DNA from: Ochrobactrum vermis
Lineage (GTDB): Bacteria; Pseudomonadota; Alphaproteobacteria; Rhizobiales; Rhizobiaceae
Reading direction: 5' to 3'
Assembly (NCBI RefSeq): GCF_002975205.1
Contig: NZ_PCOC01000001.1
Location: 1,178,001-1,242,000 of the forward strand
DNA: 64,000 nt
The translations under genes and the position numbers were made by a program. A model generated the notes under the pieces. The model did no database searches. It saw only the letters and a list, made by a program, of their open reading frames with translations, and had not been told where the DNA came from. Shown here piece by piece: positions 24,039 to 61,660 of the stretch; the stretch's first letter is position 1, and the number at the start of each line of letters is the position of its first letter.

Positions 24039-24236
24039 ATGAAGTTTTCCGTTCCCAAGATGAAATGCGGTGGTTGTGCCGATAACGTTACCGTCGCGCT
24101 GCGTAAACTCGATGCAACTGCGCCAATCGATATCGATCTCGACAAGAAAGAGGTGGAGTTCGGCGGCACTGTTTCACAGGATGCTGTGCTTTCCGCATTG
24201 GCTGCAGCCGGATATCCGGCAACGAGTGCGCAATAA
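24039..24236 (+). CDS. heavy-metal-associated (HMA) domain protein, CopZ-like
   Basis: A 65-residue single HMA domain with a CxxC metal site in PKMKCGGCADNV and the beta-alpha-beta-beta-alpha-beta length of CopZ/Atx1 chaperones. The usual GMTCxxC methionine is replaced by K before the first cysteine (MKCGGC). AAAGGAG at 24021-24027 fits either ATG 24039 or TTG 24036; an upstream start at 23991 would include the ribosome-binding site in the protein and is rejected. No copper ATPase is next to it, so the metal (copper is usual) is inferred from the family. Confidence 0.85.
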   Translation: MKFSVPKMKCGGCADNVTVALRKLDATAPIDIDLDKKEVEFGGTVSQDAVLSALAAAGYPATSAQ

Positions 24237-24275
24237 TGTGATTTGAGAGGCGCTTGTATCAAAGTGCTGCAAAAG

Positions 24276-24320
24276 CTAGAGCGCATCCCGAAAGTGTGAA
24301 ACGGTTTCGGGATGCGTTTT
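24276..24320. repeat. dispersed palindromic repeat, copy in the gap 24237-24604
   Basis: AGAGCGCATCCCGAAAGTGT, then GAAACGGTTTCGGGATGCG, forms a shorter, more perfect palindrome than other copies (one A lost from the AAAA run and one T from the TTTT run, preserving pairing). A T-run follows on the plus strand, so this copy could terminate transcription. The rest of the 368-base gap up to the pcm start holds no supported gene. Confidence 0.8.
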
Positions 24321-24604
24321 TTTGAATACGCATCAGGATGCCGGGAAGCCAAAGGCTTTCCGGTTTTTCTGTATCCCGATTCCGATAATCAATGGCGGGG
24401 TATCCGTGAGCATGAATGCCGCAAATGCTGTGTTTCATTGACTGGACCCGCGATTTTTGCCACATCAACGGCAAATCTCGTTTATGGTGCCTTGGCAGCG
24501 AGAAACGGATTTGAACCGCTCATTAGGAAGAGCGGATCAATCTTGGCTGACAGGCGCTGATGGCATGAAACATCGCATTCCGCGACAAGGAAGGGTTTAG
24601 GGCT

Positions 24605-25273
24605 ATGGCAGCCGATTTCCAGGATCTTCGCACAAAGATGGTCGACAATCAGATCCGTACGACGGACGTAACCGATCTGGCGGTTATCGATGCTTTCCTG
24701 ACTGTCCCGCGCGAGGCTTTCGTTCCCGCCGCCCGTCAGGTGCTTGCCTATATCGATGAAGATCAGCTTCTCGAAAGCGAAGGCAAGCAGCCTCGCTACC
24801 TCATGGAGCCTTCGCCCTTTGCCAAGCTCGTGCAGCTTGCGCGCGTCAAGAAGACCGATGTGGTTCTCGATATCGGCTGCGGCACCGGATATTCTGCAGC
24901 TATTCTCTCCAACCTTGCAGGTTCGGTCATCGGCCTCGAAAGTGATTCCGCATTGTCGGCCGCTGCGACTGCCCGTCTGGCAGAATTGGGCCATGACAAT
25001 GTTGTGATCGTTTCAGGTGAGCTGCAGGCAGGCTATCCGTCGGAAGCTCCATATGACGTGATCGTAATTGAGGGTGCAGTCGATTTCATTCCTGATACGC
25101 TTCTCAGCCAGTTGAAGGATGGTGGACGCCTCGTCGCTGTTGAAGGCCGCGGGAATGCGGGAGTTGCGCGGATTTATGTTAAAGAAAATGGTGTTGCATC
25201 GGGACGCGGTGTGTTCAACACTGCGGTTCGTCCGCTGCCTGGATTCGAGCGCGTTCCACAGTTCGAGTTTTAA
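24605..25273 (+). CDS. pcm: protein-L-isoaspartate O-methyltransferase
   Basis: A 222-residue SAM-dependent methyltransferase that starts repair of isoaspartyl residues in damaged proteins. SAM motif I is VVLDIGCGTGYSAA (about 85-98). The family N-terminal block is seen in MVDNQIRTTDVTD and VPREAFVP, and the C-terminus shows the typical GGRLVAVEG. Rhizobiales commonly have this gene next to the tolC homologue, as here. The protein is somewhat divergent from E. coli Pcm, so the substrate is inferred from the family. Confidence 0.85.
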   Translation: MAADFQDLRTKMVDNQIRTTDVTDLAVIDAFLTVPREAFVPAARQVLAYIDEDQLLESEGKQPRYLMEPSPFAKLVQLARVKKTDVVLDIGCGTGYSAAILSNLAGSVIGLESDSALSAAATARLAELGHDNVVIVSGELQAGYPSEAPYDVIVIEGAVDFIPDTLLSQLKDGGRLVAVEGRGNAGVARIYVKENGVASGRGVFNTAVRPLPGFERVPQFEF

Positions 25274-47791: not shown

Positions 47792-47866
47792 GGGCGTGTA
47801 GCTCAGCGGGAGAGCACTCCCTTCACACGGGAGGGGTCACAGGTTCAATCCCTGTCACGCCCACCA
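47792..47866 (+). tRNA. tRNA-Val (anticodon CAC), prophage integration site
   Basis: GGGCGTG pairs with CACGCCC in the acceptor stem. The D-arm is AGCTCAGCGGGAGAGC. The anticodon stem CTCCC/GGGAG encloses TTCACAC, giving anticodon CAC. The T-arm is CACAGGTTCAATCCCTGTC, and CCA is encoded at 47864-47866. A phage integrase follows 112 bases downstream, so its 3' half is the probable attL core. Confidence 0.96.
47842..47866. other. putative attL core within the tRNA-Val 3' end
   Basis: Tyrosine integrases of this type usually recombine at the T-arm/acceptor end of a tRNA and restore the gene on insertion. The tRNA is intact here and the integrase is immediately adjacent. The exact core cannot be fixed because the second copy (attR) lies outside the window. 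Confidence 0.5.
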
Positions 47867-47978: not shown

Positions 47979-48974
47979 TTAGTTCTTCTTCCGTTCCAGC
48001 TTCTTTGACACCGGCAAGAGATTCGAGCGCTTCGCCTCATCAGTTGCCACCACGTGCGCATATCTGGCTGCAGATGCCATATCTGTCCAAGCGCCAGTTC
48101 CTACCAGTCCACGCACGTCCAATCCCCCGTATTTTCGCATCCACGTAGCCCATGTGTGTCTAAACACGTGGAACGTCACAAAGTCCACATCAGGACCGGC
48201 TTTCGTTTTCACGTCTTCCAGCCATGTGTAAAGTCGTCCTGACTTTCGGAACCGGAATAGCTTTCCTTCGCGGTCCAGACCCCGAGGATGATTCGCGATT
48301 GCTGCAACCACTGTCGGCGGCAGATGAACCGCTCTGGGCTTCCCGTTCTTTGTTGCTGGCAGGTATGCCATACCTTCGGTCAGATCCAGTCTGGCTATTT
48401 CCAGCGTTGTTAGCTCACTGAGCCGCATGCCGGTATAGAGCAGGGTATGCAGGAATATTCCGAACTCAGCATCTTTTTTGTATGCCGCGTCCAGAATCTT
48501 GAATGCCTGCTTGTCTGTCATCCAATCGGTCTTCATCTGGCCTCGGGAGCCCTTCGGACGCTTCCATTGCTGGTTAAGCCCTGCATGCTTCAGGATGGCT
48601 GAAATGACCGTGTAGACCTGCCTATTGCGCGTCGCTGCGCTCGCGTTCGGATAGAGAGCAATTGCCGTGGTATCGATCAACTGCTGGTCGATGTCGATCA
48701 AACGGTAATGGCCGATCCTTTCAACGATCGGCTCTATAAAGCGCTCATTGTGAGTGGCCGCGATATAATCCGTCACCGCGTCTAGGAATGTCGGCTCTCC
48801 GGGTTTCCTGAAAACTCCTGCTTCGATTTCTTCTTTCCAGAGTTTGAGGAGCTTTGCTGCCGTATTTTTGTCAGTCGTCTTTGTACTTCTGTCCATTGCG
48901 ACCCCGAAGTGGGTGCCGCGAACGTAGTAGTACGGCGATTTGCCCGCACGGGGAGGGATGAGCTTGAGTGGCAT
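47979..48974 (-). CDS. int: phage tyrosine-type site-specific integrase
   Basis: A 331-residue tyrosine recombinase. A basic arm-binding N-terminus (MPLKLIPPRAGKSPYYYVRG) and a SAM-like core-binding domain precede the catalytic domain. The catalytic set is complete: Arg in TGMRLSEL, Lys in TKNGKPR, HxxR in HVFRHTWATW, and the final Tyr in ARYAHV. The C-terminus is Lys-rich. It lies 112 bases from tRNA-Val and marks the left end of the prophage. Its 5' end overlaps the excisionase-like gene by 193 bases in another frame. Confidence 0.95.
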   Translation of the reverse strand: MPLKLIPPRAGKSPYYYVRGTHFGVAMDRSTKTTDKNTAAKLLKLWKEEIEAGVFRKPGEPTFLDAVTDYIAATHNERFIEPIVERIGHYRLIDIDQQLIDTTAIALYPNASAATRNRQVYTVISAILKHAGLNQQWKRPKGSRGQMKTDWMTDKQAFKILDAAYKKDAEFGIFLHTLLYTGMRLSELTTLEIARLDLTEGMAYLPATKNGKPRAVHLPPTVVAAIANHPRGLDREGKLFRFRKSGRLYTWLEDVKTKAGPDVDFVTFHVFRHTWATWMRKYGGLDVRGLVGTGAWTDMASAARYAHVVATDEAKRSNLLPVSKKLERKKN

Positions 48975-57752: not shown

Positions 57753-57977
57753 TTAGGCGAGGAAATGCTTGCCTTTTAGAGAAACCGGTTGGCCTTCCTC
57801 GGCAGCTCTGTGACAAGCGGCGAGGGCGGTTATCCATGCTGCAGCCTTTGGAGGAATTTCAGCTTCACTCGACAACCAAGCTTCCACGAGCGCGACATGA
57901 CACTCCAGCTTGCGCGCCAGAATAGCCAGCGTCCAGCCGATATCATCAAGGCAGTGCTGCAACGCTTCGGACTTCAT
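57753..57977 (-). CDS. small helix-turn-helix protein of the prophage
   Basis: A 74-residue protein with an XRE-type helix-turn-helix: MKSEALQHCLDDIGWTLAIL, then ARKLECHVALVEAWLSSEAE and the IPPKAA turn. The pattern L-A-x-x-L-x-x...V-E-x-W-L-S-G/S-x-x-x-I-P matches the small DNA-binding proteins common in Rhizobiales genomes. It is leftward and ends before the terminator at about 57,260. Role unknown; an auxiliary phage regulator is possible. Confidence 0.7.
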   Translation of the reverse strand: MKSEALQHCLDDIGWTLAILARKLECHVALVEAWLSSEAEIPPKAAAWITALAACHRAAEEGQPVSLKGKHFLA

Positions 57978-57997: not shown

Positions 57998-58153
57998 TCA
58001 GACGAACATCATCACGATAATGCCACCAAGAACGACAAGGACAAGTCCTCCAATCAGCATCGGGGTGAGCGTGCTGCCTTTGGAATCCCCGCCGCTTGAC
58101 CGGTCACCGTCAATAATTACGGCGTTATTCCGGGGTTTCTTATCATCCGCCAT
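57998..58153 (-). CDS. 51-residue membrane protein
   Basis: A small gene encoding 51 residues: a charged N-terminus (MADDKKPRNNAVIIDGDRSS) and one C-terminal membrane helix (LIGGLVLVVLGGIIVMMFV). GGAGG lies seven bases before the ATG, a strong ribosome-binding site. The stop is 20 bases before the HTH gene on the same strand. In a prophage such a protein could act in superinfection exclusion, but nothing shows this directly. Confidence 0.75.
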   Translation of the reverse strand: MADDKKPRNNAVIIDGDRSSGGDSKGSTLTPMLIGGLVLVVLGGIIVMMFV

Positions 58154-58275
58154 GATGATCCTCCGTCGAGGAAATCATAGCTTACCATGTATCGCCGCTA
58201 TTTGCGCTAGCGCAAAGAAGATGTAGCGGGGTGCGGCGGCTTGCCGACTTTGGTGCAGCCAGCTACAAGCGCAAC

Positions 58276-58467
58276 ATGATTTCATTTTCTTGGTGGGTTG
58301 CCGTTCTCGTCATCATGTCGATCTATTGGCCGATTACCGTAATGGTGGCGGCGGCAATAGTCATGACGGCATTTATGGGGACGAAAAGCGTTGGATGGCG
58401 GGCTGCCTGGACTATGTTGGCAATTCTGTTGGTGGTGCCGGCTATCTGGTTCTATTCGCTCGCATGA
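58276..58467 (+). CDS. small membrane protein of the prophage
   Basis: A 63-residue protein with two membrane helices (ISFSWWVAVLVIMSIYWPIT and AAWTMLAILLVVPAIWFYSL). No strong ribosome-binding site precedes ATG 58276; an in-frame GTG at 58231 would add 15 residues. It is the only rightward gene between two leftward units. Function unknown. Confidence 0.5.
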   Translation: MISFSWWVAVLVIMSIYWPITVMVAAAIVMTAFMGTKSVGWRAAWTMLAILLVVPAIWFYSLA

Positions 58468-58498
58468 AAACCCCCGCCGAAGCGGGGAGTGGATGTTA

Positions 58499-58693
58499 CT
58501 ACTGTCTGTTGCGCTTGTGAGGCTCATCCCGCGACAAGAATGTTATGTAAAAATTGTCGTCGATCTTGGCACTTCTGAAATCATCGATAGTGCGCTTTTT
58601 CGGTGAAGTAGACGCACTCGTAACCACACCGCTTACAGATCGAATCTGCGAGCGTTTCACGTAGTTGCCGGGGGTGTTCTTCACTTTTCGCAT
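58499..58693 (-). CDS. 64-residue basic protein, third gene of the kinase cassette
   Basis: A 64-residue Lys/Arg/Ser-rich protein (MRKVKNTPGNYVKRSQIRSV, then SGVVTSASTSPKKRTIDDFR). Its ATG shares a base with the kinase stop (TAATG), so its translation depends on the kinase. Several Ser/Thr residues next to basic residues could be kinase substrates. No domain recognised. Confidence 0.6.
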   Translation of the reverse strand: MRKVKNTPGNYVKRSQIRSVSGVVTSASTSPKKRTIDDFRSAKIDDNFYITFLSRDEPHKRNRQ

Positions 58694-59736
58694 TAATATG
58701 CCTTGAAGATTTTCCTCAGATCGCTGTCAGAGATTTGATCCCTACATGCTTCGCCGATACGACGTGGCTTACTTCCATTAACGCTTTTATAGCACGTCGT
58801 GGTTCCATCACCATGAAGAGAAAGTTCATATTGGGTTTCGTCTACGATTTTCGTCCAGGTCTTTCGATCTGGATGTACAGACAATCTCCAGTCGAGCGTT
58901 TCTCCGTCGATATCTGCCATTGCATTTGCCACGTCCAATGCTGACTGATATCGATTATCGGAACGAACCTCTAAACATTTCTTAATCACATTACGCAATT
59001 TAGATGGCACATTTGGGGCGAAGGATTTCCGGTCTGGGAATCTTCCATTCCGCACATCGAAGCGAAAACGATCTCTGTCGAAGGCGCCATGCTGGCCGTA
59101 ATCACGTAACTGTTGATAGAAGTGCTCATTTCCATTGCACATGCGATATAAAGTCAAACCGACTTGGTAGATATCAAACGTTCGATCGAAGTGATCAGTT
59201 TCCATGCCCTCGGGAGTTATCATTGGCCCGTAGAGCCGATCTTGCGCAGCCTTACCTGCGTAATTCATCTGTTTCGCTTGCCCAAAGTCGGACACTAACG
59301 CTTCCCGCCTGGGCGACAACAGAATATTGTCCGGCTTCACGTCGAAATGGATCAGCCCTTTAGAATGAATGTTGTGTAAGCCTGCAAGAATCTGCGAACC
59401 GAGAGTTATAATTTCACGCACAGTCATGTGGCGACCGGTGATTAGATCCTTGATTGATCCATTTTGATAGTATGGCATCGCGACATATACGTGTTCATCA
59501 TCAAAGCAAGCGTAGTGAATTTGAACCACGTTCGGATGAGCGCTGGAATAAAGCGCTTTTGATTCCGCGAAGAACTCTTCAGTGCAATTCAGCGTCTTCT
59601 TTTGAATTTGCTTTGTGACAATTTCAGCATCTAGCTGGTGGTCACGTGTGACGTATGTTCTCGAATTTCGACCGTCTTGCCCAATTTCGCGGATGATGTC
59701 GAATGCCAACTCGGCTTTCTGATATGGCTTAAGCAT
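58693..59736 (-). CDS. eukaryotic-type Ser/Thr protein kinase in the prophage lysogeny region
   Basis: A 347-residue cytoplasmic protein kinase with all catalytic elements. A degenerate glycine loop (IGQDGRNSRTYV, about 17-28) is followed by the ATP lysine in IVTKQI (about 42), the helix-C glutamate in FFAESKAL (about 58), and catalytic loop HFDVKPDNILL (about 134-144). DFG is in VSDFGQAK, and a PEG occupies the APE place. The HRD arginine is replaced by Phe, so it is a non-RD kinase, not needing activation-loop phosphorylation. Residues about 265-347 form a separate C-terminal domain. There is no membrane segment. The DNA is AT-rich (38-45% GC in the lines I counted), unlike its surroundings. 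Confidence 0.9.
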   Translation of the reverse strand: MLKPYQKAELAFDIIREIGQDGRNSRTYVTRDHQLDAEIVTKQIQKKTLNCTEEFFAESKALYSSAHPNVVQIHYACFDDEHVYVAMPYYQNGSIKDLITGRHMTVREIITLGSQILAGLHNIHSKGLIHFDVKPDNILLSPRREALVSDFGQAKQMNYAGKAAQDRLYGPMITPEGMETDHFDRTFDIYQVGLTLYRMCNGNEHFYQQLRDYGQHGAFDRDRFRFDVRNGRFPDRKSFAPNVPSKLRNVIKKCLEVRSDNRYQSALDVANAMADIDGETLDWRLSVHPDRKTWTKIVDETQYELSLHGDGTTTCYKSVNGSKPRRIGEACRDQISDSDLRKIFKAY

Positions 59737-60184
59737 CCTCAGCTCCTATAGCACAAAGGATTGCTTCTCGCTCTTCCTTTCCCATCTTCTTCCAATTATC
59801 AACGCCGAGATCATCCTCGCCATCTATGAGTGGCTTGAACCTTTTTCGATCAATGCCTACGCGTTTTGATATCGATGAAATTTGTCCAACGTAGTAGGAT
59901 TTTAGCTCGCTGCTGGCGAATGCCTCTTGAATGACGCCTTCGATTTGAATTCGTTCGATATTCGGATAGCTCGCTACCGATTCCGTCACTCTTACGCCTG
60001 CACGCTCTACCCGATATTCACGAAGGACATCGAGAAGATTTGAGCGAACGTATTTCAGAGCGGCGGGTGTTTCGAACGCAGCCGGAATTTTTATATCCTC
60101 AACGTTCAAGATGGATTTTGCTTCTGCGTCGTAGATAGCAAAAGTCACGCACTTAGGCGTCGCGCGAATGCCGATTGTAATCAT
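59729..60184 (-). CDS. RNase H-fold-like protein, first gene of the kinase cassette
   Basis: A 151-residue protein. The first part (MITIGIRATPKCVTFAIYDA, then VEDIKIPAAFETPAALKYVR) reads as the strand-turn-strand opening of an RNase H/RuvC-like fold. RVERAGVRVTES follows as a central strand with a Glu. The usual first catalytic Asp is Arg here (GIRA), so a nuclease function is doubtful. This reading is tentative and DUF3010-like proteins are an alternative. ATG 60184 is preferred over 60214. The stop overlaps the kinase start by eight bases, so the two proteins are made together. Confidence 0.55.
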   Translation of the reverse strand: MITIGIRATPKCVTFAIYDAEAKSILNVEDIKIPAAFETPAALKYVRSNLLDVLREYRVERAGVRVTESVASYPNIERIQIEGVIQEAFASSELKSYYVGQISSISKRVGIDRKRFKPLIDGEDDLGVDNWKKMGKEEREAILCAIGAEDA

Positions 60185-60311
60185 TGCCTCAACCCATTTA
60201 CCCCTAGTGGGCAAACGATACAGCGAGTCTCTGATCTGTCTATAAACTTCTTCGTTTTAACAGACACAACATCTAGCGGCGACAAAAAGTCATTAACGTT
60301 TCGTCAAGAAT

Positions 60312-60326
60312 GTTCTTGTTCCGTTC
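60312..60326. promoter_or_regulatory. LexA-box-like site between the kinase cassette and the rightward genes
   Basis: GTTC-TTGTTCC-GTTC matches the alphaproteobacterial LexA consensus GTTC-N7-GTTC exactly. It overlaps a perfect palindrome, CAAGAATGTTCTTG (60305-60318). It lies 53 bases before the rightward gene at 60379 and about 130 bases before the cassette start. About two chance matches are expected in a window of this size. Confidence 0.4.
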
Positions 60327-60378
60327 TTTTTTGTGAGTCATCCTGTCGCACATAACAAGCGTACAGGGAGTAACGGGT

Positions 60379-60636
60379 ATGAGCATGCAAACCAATTTTA
60401 TCGTGCAGAGCTACAGCAAGGGGCCGAGGGGCAAACTGATTGCCGACACACCGTTCGTCGCGAAGGACGTAGCCCACGCAAGGCGCACCGCAGAACGCAT
60501 GGCAGCAAGCAGCCCAATGGTGATCGCTTTCGCGAACACTAGTGACGCTGAGACCGGCGATTTCGAAGAGCCCAAGCTCATTTATGCTCACGGCGATCCG
60601 CTTCCACCTGAAGTCGAAGAGATGGAGCGTGTCTGA
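60379..60636 (+). CDS. phage protein of unknown function
   Basis: An 85-residue protein (MSMQTNFIVQSYSKGPRGKL, then IADTPFVAKDVAHARRTAER). The alpha/beta pattern with an Ala-rich helix and the IAFANTSDAETGDFEEPKLI segment is seen in many Rhizobiales prophages near the repressor, as I remember them. A ribosome-binding site, CAGGGAGTAACGGG, precedes ATG 60379. Its stop shares a base with the next ATG. Confidence 0.7.
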   Translation: MSMQTNFIVQSYSKGPRGKLIADTPFVAKDVAHARRTAERMAASSPMVIAFANTSDAETGDFEEPKLIYAHGDPLPPEVEEMERV

Positions 60637-60905
60637 TGTTGGACGGGGGGATTGTTGAAGAGGGCAAGCGCCTCGTTATTGAGTTATCCAGCGTATACGT
60701 GGCCTGCGACGACTGCGGGCACTCGCGTATCCTGTACCTATCCAATCTGCGAAAAGCTGCGGAGCTAGGAGTACAGAACTACAGGGAACTGTGCCGCAAG
60801 ATCAGGTGCGGGGAGTGTCCGAAGGCGCCGCCGAATGCACGTAACCTCACCATTCGGCCATGCTGGCGTTGTGATGAGATTGAAGTCGATCAGACGTGCG
60901 CTTGA
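60636..60905 (+). CDS. phage protein with three CxxC motifs
   Basis: An 89-residue protein with CDDC (about 24-27), CGEC (about 58-61) and CWRC (about 76-79) plus an extra Cys at residue 53, likely binding one or two zinc ions. The central segment SRILYLSNLRKAAELGVQNY is helical. Zinc-binding proteins of this size often act on nucleic acids. It overlaps the end of the convergent repressor gene by 16 bases. Confidence 0.65.
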   Translation: MLDGGIVEEGKRLVIELSSVYVACDDCGHSRILYLSNLRKAAELGVQNYRELCRKIRCGECPKAPPNARNLTIRPCWRCDEIEVDQTCA

Positions 60906-61660
60906 AATACGATCTTGTGAACTGAGAAGACCTTATCGGCGTCGAACTCCAGCTCTTTGTCTTCGCCTTCGTCAGGATTGTACTGATAGAGGCGAAGCAC
61001 TCGCGACGATCGGGATTCGAACCGTTTGATATAACTGTCGACGGGCTGGTCTTCTCCCTCTTCGATGATCTGGGCGATAACATCGTCTCCAGCCCGCACG
61101 GGCAGATGAGGGTTAACCCAGACCGTCTCGCCCGCGAAATAGCGCGGTTCCATCGATGTGCCGTAGACCATGACGGCATAAGCTCCTTCGACGCCTTCCA
61201 GCATAGGAGGGCAGAATACGCGGCCAATCTCCGTTCCATTAAGAATGAACCTGCCGTTTGGGCCGCCTGCAGTTTGTCCGAGCAAAGGTACCGTGTGATC
61301 CTGCGGGAACTCCTGGTATCGCGGTGGAAAGCTTGCGTTCGGCTTAGGGCGAGGGCGCTCTACTGTTTCAAGAGTTAGACTGCCACCCATACCAATAGTG
61401 CCGGATCCGCCGATCGGAACGCCAGTCAGAGCCCAAATTTCCTCTTTCGTGATTGGTGGCGTACCGAGGCCAACTAACGCCGCCTCCAGCTTCACGGCAA
61501 TCTTGTTCGGAAGAACCGGGTCTTTGAAGTGTTCGTCACTCAAATATCTTTGAATGCTCGATGCGCCTTTGAAGCCCATACGATGCGCGAGTGAACCCTG
61601 AACAAGGCCAGCCCTGCTCATAAGCTCCCGAATTTGCTGCGGAATCGTTTTTTCCATCAT
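60890..61660 (-). CDS. CI-like phage repressor with S24 (LexA-type) peptidase domain
   Basis: A 256-residue repressor maintaining lysogeny. An N-terminal helix-turn-helix (IRELMSRAGLVQGSLAHRMG, then FKGASSIQRYLSDEHFK) binds DNA. A linker leads to an S24 domain: cleavage site Ala-Gly in LLGQTAGGPNG, nucleophilic serine in YGTSMEPRYFAGE, and the general-base lysine in SYIKRFESR. It is therefore expected to cut itself when RecA is activated, inducing the prophage. ATG 61660 or 61657 starts it, with a weak ribosome-binding site. It is divergent from the Cro-like gene. Confidence 0.93.
   Translation of the reverse strand: MMEKTIPQQIRELMSRAGLVQGSLAHRMGFKGASSIQRYLSDEHFKDPVLPNKIAVKLEAALVGLGTPPITKEEIWALTGVPIGGSGTIGMGGSLTLETVERPRPKPNASFPPRYQEFPQDHTVPLLGQTAGGPNGRFILNGTEIGRVFCPPMLEGVEGAYAVMVYGTSMEPRYFAGETVWVNPHLPVRAGDDVIAQIIEEGEDQPVDSYIKRFESRSSRVLRLYQYNPDEGEDKELEFDADKVFSVHKIVFQAHV

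Follow-up and report, generated by a model that had tools for sequence, protein, structure and literature searches.

A three-gene kinase cassette in an Ochrobactrum vermis prophage: a distant relative of the 933W stk locus with a putative role in superinfection exclusion

Results

The genes of the cassette

The window analyzed in this study is a stretch of 64,000 nucleotides from Ochrobactrum vermis (NCBI RefSeq assembly GCF_002975205.1, contig NZ_PCOC01000001.1, positions 1,178,001 to 1,242,000 of the forward strand), in which a prophage carries a cassette of three genes, all on the reverse strand. The first gene (59729-60184) encodes a RuvC-like protein of 151 residues, the second (58693-59736) a Hanks-type protein kinase of 347 residues, and the third (58499-58693) a small basic protein of 64 residues with a calculated pI of 10.7. 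A preliminary description, made from the letters alone, had listed these open reading frames (ORFs) as overlapping end to start. All three are indeed open at these coordinates, with an overlap of 8 bases between the RuvC-like and kinase genes (59729-59736) and of 1 base between the kinase and small genes (58693).

The RuvC-like protein had been called RNase H-like. This assignment was borne out and could be refined to the RuvC fold. Since comparison of RuvC-like profiles with the sequences of solved structures gave chance matches only, the fold had to be compared directly; this comparison showed a RuvC fold, at 12-16% identity to the RuvC resolvase. In RuvC, the Asp at the end of strand 1 is catalytic. 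The position is occupied by Arg (Arg7 in the window) in all 60 relatives, so that the acidic site is not preserved, whereas the chromosomal RuvC of the same genome retains GIDPG. This fact suggests that the RuvC-like protein is probably nuclease-dead, and it may act as a sensor or regulator. The strand-4 Glu of RuvC falls on R65 in a single MAFFT alignment with a poor C-terminal part.

In the search of phage families (PHROGs), the protein matched RuvC-like models alone. The window protein had no match to the Pfam family RuvC (PF02075), for which three distant family members were at or below the cut-off. One RefSeq record from E. coli names a member "RuvC family protein", and phage records use "RuvC-like Holliday junction resolvase". 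One Pandoraea homologue is labeled DUF3010 (PF11215). This family was considered and rejected, as the window protein does not match it; the active-site residues of DUF3010 are conserved according to an excerpt of PMC3985635, unlike those of the cassette family.

The kinase matched PF00069 at 130.7 bits and phrog_2361 at 220 bits. Its catalytic residues are kept in 53 of 53 relatives, and its description as a non-RD kinase holds, with HFD in place of HRD here and in 51 of the 53. The structure model (predicted local distance difference test, pLDDT, 90.1) includes the C-terminal tail (residues 284-347; 58696-58887, reverse strand) as a confidently predicted small domain of four strands and a helix. 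The tail alone matched nothing in Pfam, and a search of the viral structure library with the kinase returned kinases among the matches listed. In the model, the tail could be a contact site for a partner. In two viral copies from E. coli prophages (L069 and L075), the reading frame of the kinase is broken into two parts, with the RuvC-like gene still open.

Recurrence of the gene order

Genomes of 84,980 species, one per species, were scanned with an alignment of the RuvC-like protein, which gave 52 loci, and a scan of viral contigs gave 44; these scans rely on conserved peptide patterns and miss distant members. In 94 of the 96 loci, the RuvC-like gene is directly followed by the kinase gene on the same strand, and the other two (L019 and L058) are truncated by the end of the contig. 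In the reverse direction, a viral scan with the kinase alignment gave 65 loci, with the RuvC-like gene upstream in 64 (21 of them on contigs missed by the first viral scan) and a contig end at the start of the remaining one, L144. According to the preliminary description, its proposal would fall if homologues of these genes never occurred together. The opposite was seen, in 94 of 94 and 64 of 64 testable loci, and the recurrence of the same order in all 94 is beyond chance. The loci are not independent: many of the viral ones are near-identical E. coli prophages, and the 98 loci hold 72 distinct RuvC-like proteins. By their record titles, the genome matches belong to Pseudomonadota, a cyanobacterium, Bacteroidota and Bacillota.

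The junction of the two genes is also similar among the loci. In the 94 cases counted (51 genome loci, 41 viral loci and 2 phage records with both starts settable), an overlap of 8 bases was seen in 47, of 7 in 23 and of 4 or 1 in 11, and a gap of 1-12 bases separates the genes in 13; the overlap of 8 bases was found in 41 of the 51 genome loci. Distances within the kinase family agree with those within the RuvC-like family (Mantel r of 0.879 over 51 loci, the best of 2000 permutations being 0.314). As judged from these loci, the RuvC-like/kinase pair is obligate. Among the open-licence papers listed, none appeared from its title and the opening of its abstract to link an Stk-type kinase with a RuvC-like or small-protein partner, and the two partner genes seem to have gone unnoticed so far.

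The small third gene is more difficult to follow. If any ORF of 45-90 codons after the kinase is accepted, the gene is present in 97 of 97 testable loci, but this loose rule is also passed by 78 of 228 other long genes, and the ORF after the kinase in L025 is by eye clearly no relative. A strict rule was passed by 88 of 94 loci and by 22 of the 228 comparison genes. Close to their N termini, 42 of 69 distinct small proteins carry a [VILT][KRGT]N motif, which was picked after the sequences had been viewed; 500 shuffles gave a maximum of 8. The ratio dN/dS, computable in 14 of 17 pairs, was 0.11-0.32 in 12 pairs, including 0.19 for the Stx-phage pair and 0.12 for the Paenibacillus pair, and 0.48 and 1.00 in the other two.

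With profile groups drawn by eye, the alphaproteobacterial small-protein profile scored 97% against the cyanobacterial sequence, and 2.8% and 4.7% against the Stx-phage and Bacillota groups, respectively. A match of 83.5% to a mixed group was discarded, as it fell to 0.5% after removal of L042 and L065. The profile links between distant clades are thus weak, and homology of the small proteins across all clades is not proven by their sequences. For the small protein of the window, the database yielded no more than 5 matching proteins, perhaps reflecting how rarely genes of this size are annotated, and searches of profile libraries gave nothing clear.

Relatives in characterized phages

A tblastn search of 50,697 phage records gave 41 with the kinase and 14 with the RuvC-like protein, and all of the latter also bear the kinase. 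The 14 are 12 records of Stx-type or related coliphages (some phages appear twice) and the Bacillus phages SPbetaL6 and SPbetaL7; the remaining 27 kinase records, at 32% identity or less, look like other kinases. The Stk kinase of the Stx phages is 35% identical to the window kinase in a full-length alignment (tblastn E 4e-66, residues 1-287). In phage P27, and likewise in an O157:H7 chromosome, the order is cI, a DUF3024 gene, the RuvC-like gene, stk and a gene of 54 residues. In the immunity record of phi24B, which is described as resembling 933W, the kinase carries the name stk. Among 5,426 complete E. coli genomes, 223 carry the P27 cassette (221 of them over at least 80% of its length), always on the chromosome.

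The preliminary description knew of no described system with this gene order. That statement does not stand, since the stk locus of 933W-type Stx phages is arranged in this way, as are the genes of SPbetaL6/L7. Homology and gene order place the cassette in the 933W stk locus family, as a new and distant member, and the order itself is not new.

Prophage setting and mobility

The position in a prophage lysogeny region was confirmed by a CI-like repressor gene (60890-61660, reverse strand; phrog_4 at 71.1 bits, PF00717), an integrase gene (47979-48974, reverse strand; PF00589 at 66.9 bits), RecT, an exonuclease VIII-like gene and a repeated tRNA end. The integrase gene lies beside tRNA-Val (47792-47866) at the left prophage end. 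The last 25 bases of this tRNA recur 50,504 bases away on the same contig, and a third copy is on another contig; the right prophage end falls outside the window.

The neighborhood was compared with that of the related prophage L056 (IMG/VR). Nucleotide identity is 95.9% in the intergenic region upstream of the cassette (60185-60378), 99.6%, 98.7% and 97.9% in the RuvC-like, kinase and small genes, and 91% in the terminator. Outside this block, which spans about 58467 to 60378, identity drops to 67% in the next gene upstream and 73% downstream (57768-57962). Judged from the alignment, the boundaries fit a moved unit. A relative of the RuvC-like protein was found in none of 99 other related genomes and in 1 of 397 others in a sample of the phylum, in which this protein alone was looked for. 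The kinase was found at E 1e-50 or better in 4 of 72,556 plasmid records, and its nearest relative, 99% identical, is from Brucella anthropi.

The low GC (guanine plus cytosine) content noted earlier for the cassette is real, but the difference is milder once averaged over genes: 46.5% for the cassette versus 54.3% for the cI gene, with 52.7% in the prophage left of the cassette and 55.3% in the host DNA within the window.

The upstream intergenic region, which lies within the conserved block, would be the site of a cassette promoter reading on the reverse strand. A promoter scan gave one weak match there (60242-60215), fewer than shuffles give and not above chance, and no repeats were found within the region. 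LexA/SOS control was considered on account of GTTC-N7-GTTC at 60312-60326 and rejected, as the window holds 3 such sites versus 2.2 expected and 44 of 100 shuffles give as many. Directly 3' of the small gene is a terminator-like hairpin with a T tail (58471-58488, reverse strand). Since the 5 such hairpins in the 4.6 kb scanned compare with 4.8 expected by chance, it is the position after the small gene, not the count, that supports a terminator.

Two genes on the forward strand diverge from the cassette. The gene of 85 residues (60379-60636) lies beyond the conserved block; among the collected loci, its protein has a relative only in L056, at the same place on the same side of the cassette, with 69% protein identity. 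The next gene, of 89 residues (60636-60905), encodes several Cys pairs. On the other side, two small genes, probably for membrane proteins (57998-58153, reverse strand, and 58231-58467, forward strand), are located between the cassette and a YdaS-like gene. Neither has a relative at E 1e-4 among the collected loci, L056 included.

Genes in the company of the cassette

For 51 genome loci, up to 2 nearest ORFs of at least 90 codons were taken on each side, giving 92 upstream and 95 downstream neighbors, of which 90 and 93 were scanned (L047 upstream and L017 downstream were excluded). At E 1e-10, they matched 48 PADLOC families upstream and 109 downstream. The matches listed include dCTP deaminase in four ORFs, a SAVED-HNH effector of the cyclic-oligonucleotide-based antiphage signaling system (CBASS) in two, and, in single ORFs, DarT, DarG, CRISPR type I-F proteins, restriction enzymes, methyltransferases, and DISARM-, Druantia- and Shedu-type proteins. 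As a control, 91 of 105 ORFs taken at 18 arbitrary places in the genome of the window and its relatives gave 4 families. These tallies count families, not ORFs, one ORF may match many models, and the control genomes differ from those of the loci; the company of defense genes seen in these sequences is therefore a strong hint and not a measured enrichment. The upstream neighbors also include phage repressors in PHROGs (phrog_4 in 5 of 90, phrog_8 in 4 of 90). In four marine Rhodobacter-type loci (L037, L038, L039 and L041), a dCTP-deaminase defense gene of about 500 codons seems to adjoin the cassette downstream on the opposite strand; these are the four members from the scan, assigned to loci by ORF length.

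Discussion

A superinfection-exclusion module

We interpret the cassette, with a probability of roughly 0.7, as a mobile three-gene module for superinfection exclusion (abortive infection) of the 933W Stk kind, carried as a self-contained prophage "moron". The preliminary description had proposed a role in superinfection defense, and this interpretation is still the best one, since HK97 infection is aborted by the homologous 933W Stk and neighbors of the cassette elsewhere match defense models. According to excerpts of papers citing the original work, the lysogen produces 933W Stk, and infecting HK97 activates the kinase, which aborts the HK97 infection. The excerpted accounts treat it as a lone kinase and describe stk as co-transcribed with cI.

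Evidence on a partner comes from phi24B. In an excerpt of PMC3342100, a protein P2 of 17,096 Da was found in lysogen cultures, and its authors call the expression of P2 and P3 restricted to stable lysogens. The computed mass of the phi24B RuvC-like protein is 17,096 Da, and that of the DUF3024 protein is 13,472 Da, the figure for P3. By mass, P2 is the phi24B RuvC-like protein, an identity which is hard to square with the accessions in the excerpted Table 3 of that paper. The DUF3024 gene itself (L001:3137-3478) is located between cI and the RuvC-like gene in Stx phages; its mass fits P3, which the same excerpt gives as strongly expressed in phi24B lysogens.

It is worth noting that several facts weigh against a role in exclusion. 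In the window, cI is separated from the cassette by two genes that run the opposite way, unlike the co-transcription in 933W, and expression of the cassette in the lysogen would depend on the putative promoter of its own. Identity to the characterized kinase is only 35%, with the tail as the least similar part. In PMC3342100, the MASCOT score of P2 (39) is not marked as significant, and analysis of variance (ANOVA) of the quantitative PCR gave no significant change for P2 or for P3. Finally, a role of the RuvC-fold partner as a sensor or switch is our inference from the fold, the loss of the Asp and the close linkage to the kinase gene.

Possible mechanism

If the cassette is an exclusion module, the lysogen would make all three proteins. 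Following the 933W precedent, the kinase would stay inactive in the lysogen until an infecting phage releases it. The RuvC-like protein would not cut DNA; it would bind the kinase, branched or recombining DNA, or both, and set the trigger. Early replication or recombination of the infecting phage would then release the kinase, which would phosphorylate itself and other proteins, and the infection would stop. The small basic protein might be a partner of the kinase, as an inhibitor, an adaptor or a substrate.

A more specific hypothesis, which we put forward tentatively and would not yet bet on, is that 933W Stk is one part of a widespread three-protein defense system. In this hypothesis, a nuclease-dead RuvC-fold sensor of branched or recombining phage DNA, or of the recombinase of the phage, would switch on a Hanks kinase, with the small basic protein as a brake or adaptor. 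If true, phage defenses would include a new signaling logic, in which a sensor of DNA structure is wired to a eukaryote-like kinase. Independently of this hypothesis, the data make Stk the central gene of a module that occurs in four phyla, both in prophages and near defense genes, and the question of what holds the kinase off and what turns it on gains two concrete partners. The module also has a clear signature by which to find it, as no PADLOC model was matched by the RuvC-like protein or the small protein of the window.

A lead to the trigger may lie in HK97. The product of HK97 orf41 is said to be the activator of Stk. The gene order in the HK97 record AF069529.1 is 40, erf, 42.1 and 42, and kil (43), by which gene 41 would be erf, encoding a single-stranded-DNA-annealing recombinase. 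In this record, erf (24175-24780; L190) is labeled "Gp40" like its neighbor, apparently by a slip, and 41 is otherwise missing. Among 34 cassette-bearing phage records (32 virus contigs, P27 and SPbetaL7; the long contigs were picked by hand, with no background rate), Erf was found in 1 and RecT in 13, while HK97 itself has Erf. The sole Erf record, L058, is the one in which the cassette is cut after the RuvC-like gene. These counts are no more than compatible with an Erf trigger.

Alternative explanations

The tight overlap and the obligate pairing would also suit a phosphorylation-based toxin-antitoxin or addiction unit, in which the kinase is the toxin, the RuvC-like or small protein is the antitoxin, and defense is secondary. 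The kinase-kinase-phosphatase system KKP, a further kinase module of prophages, is reported, in an excerpt of PMC11341870, as a tripartite toxin-antitoxin system as well as a defense. We consider such a unit unlikely, as neither partner resembles a known antitoxin; in any case, it would be compatible with a role in exclusion. The same excerpt describes how KKP governs the lysogeny of Pf through MvaU, and the cassette lies beside repressor genes here and in Stx phages. The module might therefore chiefly control its own prophage, in lysogeny maintenance or induction. This appears quite improbable, since the cassette is also found beside genes that match CRISPR, CBASS, restriction or other defense models, where a prophage may be absent.

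The RuvC fold itself might be taken to mean an active nuclease, a resolvase or an effector, regulated by the kinase. With Arg7 for the first catalytic Asp throughout the family, against the intact motif in the chromosomal RuvC, we regard this as very improbable. Least probable of all is a lysogenic-conversion set that alters host physiology or fitness and not phage infection, which the preliminary description had also proposed and with which the position in the lysogeny region would agree. The sole characterized homologue excludes HK97 according to the excerpted accounts, and an excerpt of one paper states that the attaching-and-effacing (A/E) lesion phenotype was unchanged without stk in an etk wzc double mutant. 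We therefore retain superinfection exclusion as the preferred interpretation.

Comparison with known systems

Several known systems share a part of the cassette. The RuvC Holliday junction resolvase keeps the Asp at strand 1 that the window protein has exchanged for Arg7. PD-T4-6 is a single-gene, stand-alone kinase system. Among the PADLOC matches listed, mad6 (142.1 bits) and PD-T4-6 (124.6 bits) were the top kinase models by score, and no model of the staphylococcal Stk2, which the preliminary description had named for comparison, was among the best 25 of the 34 matches. The match to PD-T4-6 and MAD6 is confined to the kinase domain, to which the window adds the RuvC-like and small proteins. 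The kinase of the cassette does not stand alone, as it accompanies the RuvC-like gene in every testable viral locus of the reverse scan.

KKP, found in Pf and other prophages, is likewise a prophage-borne module with Hanks kinases and an antiphage effect, as described in an excerpt of PMC11341870. It consists of two kinases and a phosphatase with no RuvC-like gene, whereas the cassette has one kinase and no phosphatase; the cassette is thus not a KKP system.

The loci of SPbetaL6/L7 resemble the window more closely, with a RuvC-like gene (37% identity), a kinase gene (34%) and then a gene of 60 residues. They differ from the window in their Gram-positive host, and all three genes are annotated as hypothetical. 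The stk loci of the Stx phages 933W, phi24B and P27 share with the window the three-gene order and the position in the lysogeny region, with identities of 35% for the kinase and 37% for the RuvC-like protein. The small proteins are only weakly alike, in a comparison made with records of Stx phages other than 933W itself. In P27, the DUF3024 gene separates cI from the RuvC-like gene, whereas in the window two genes of opposite direction occupy that place.
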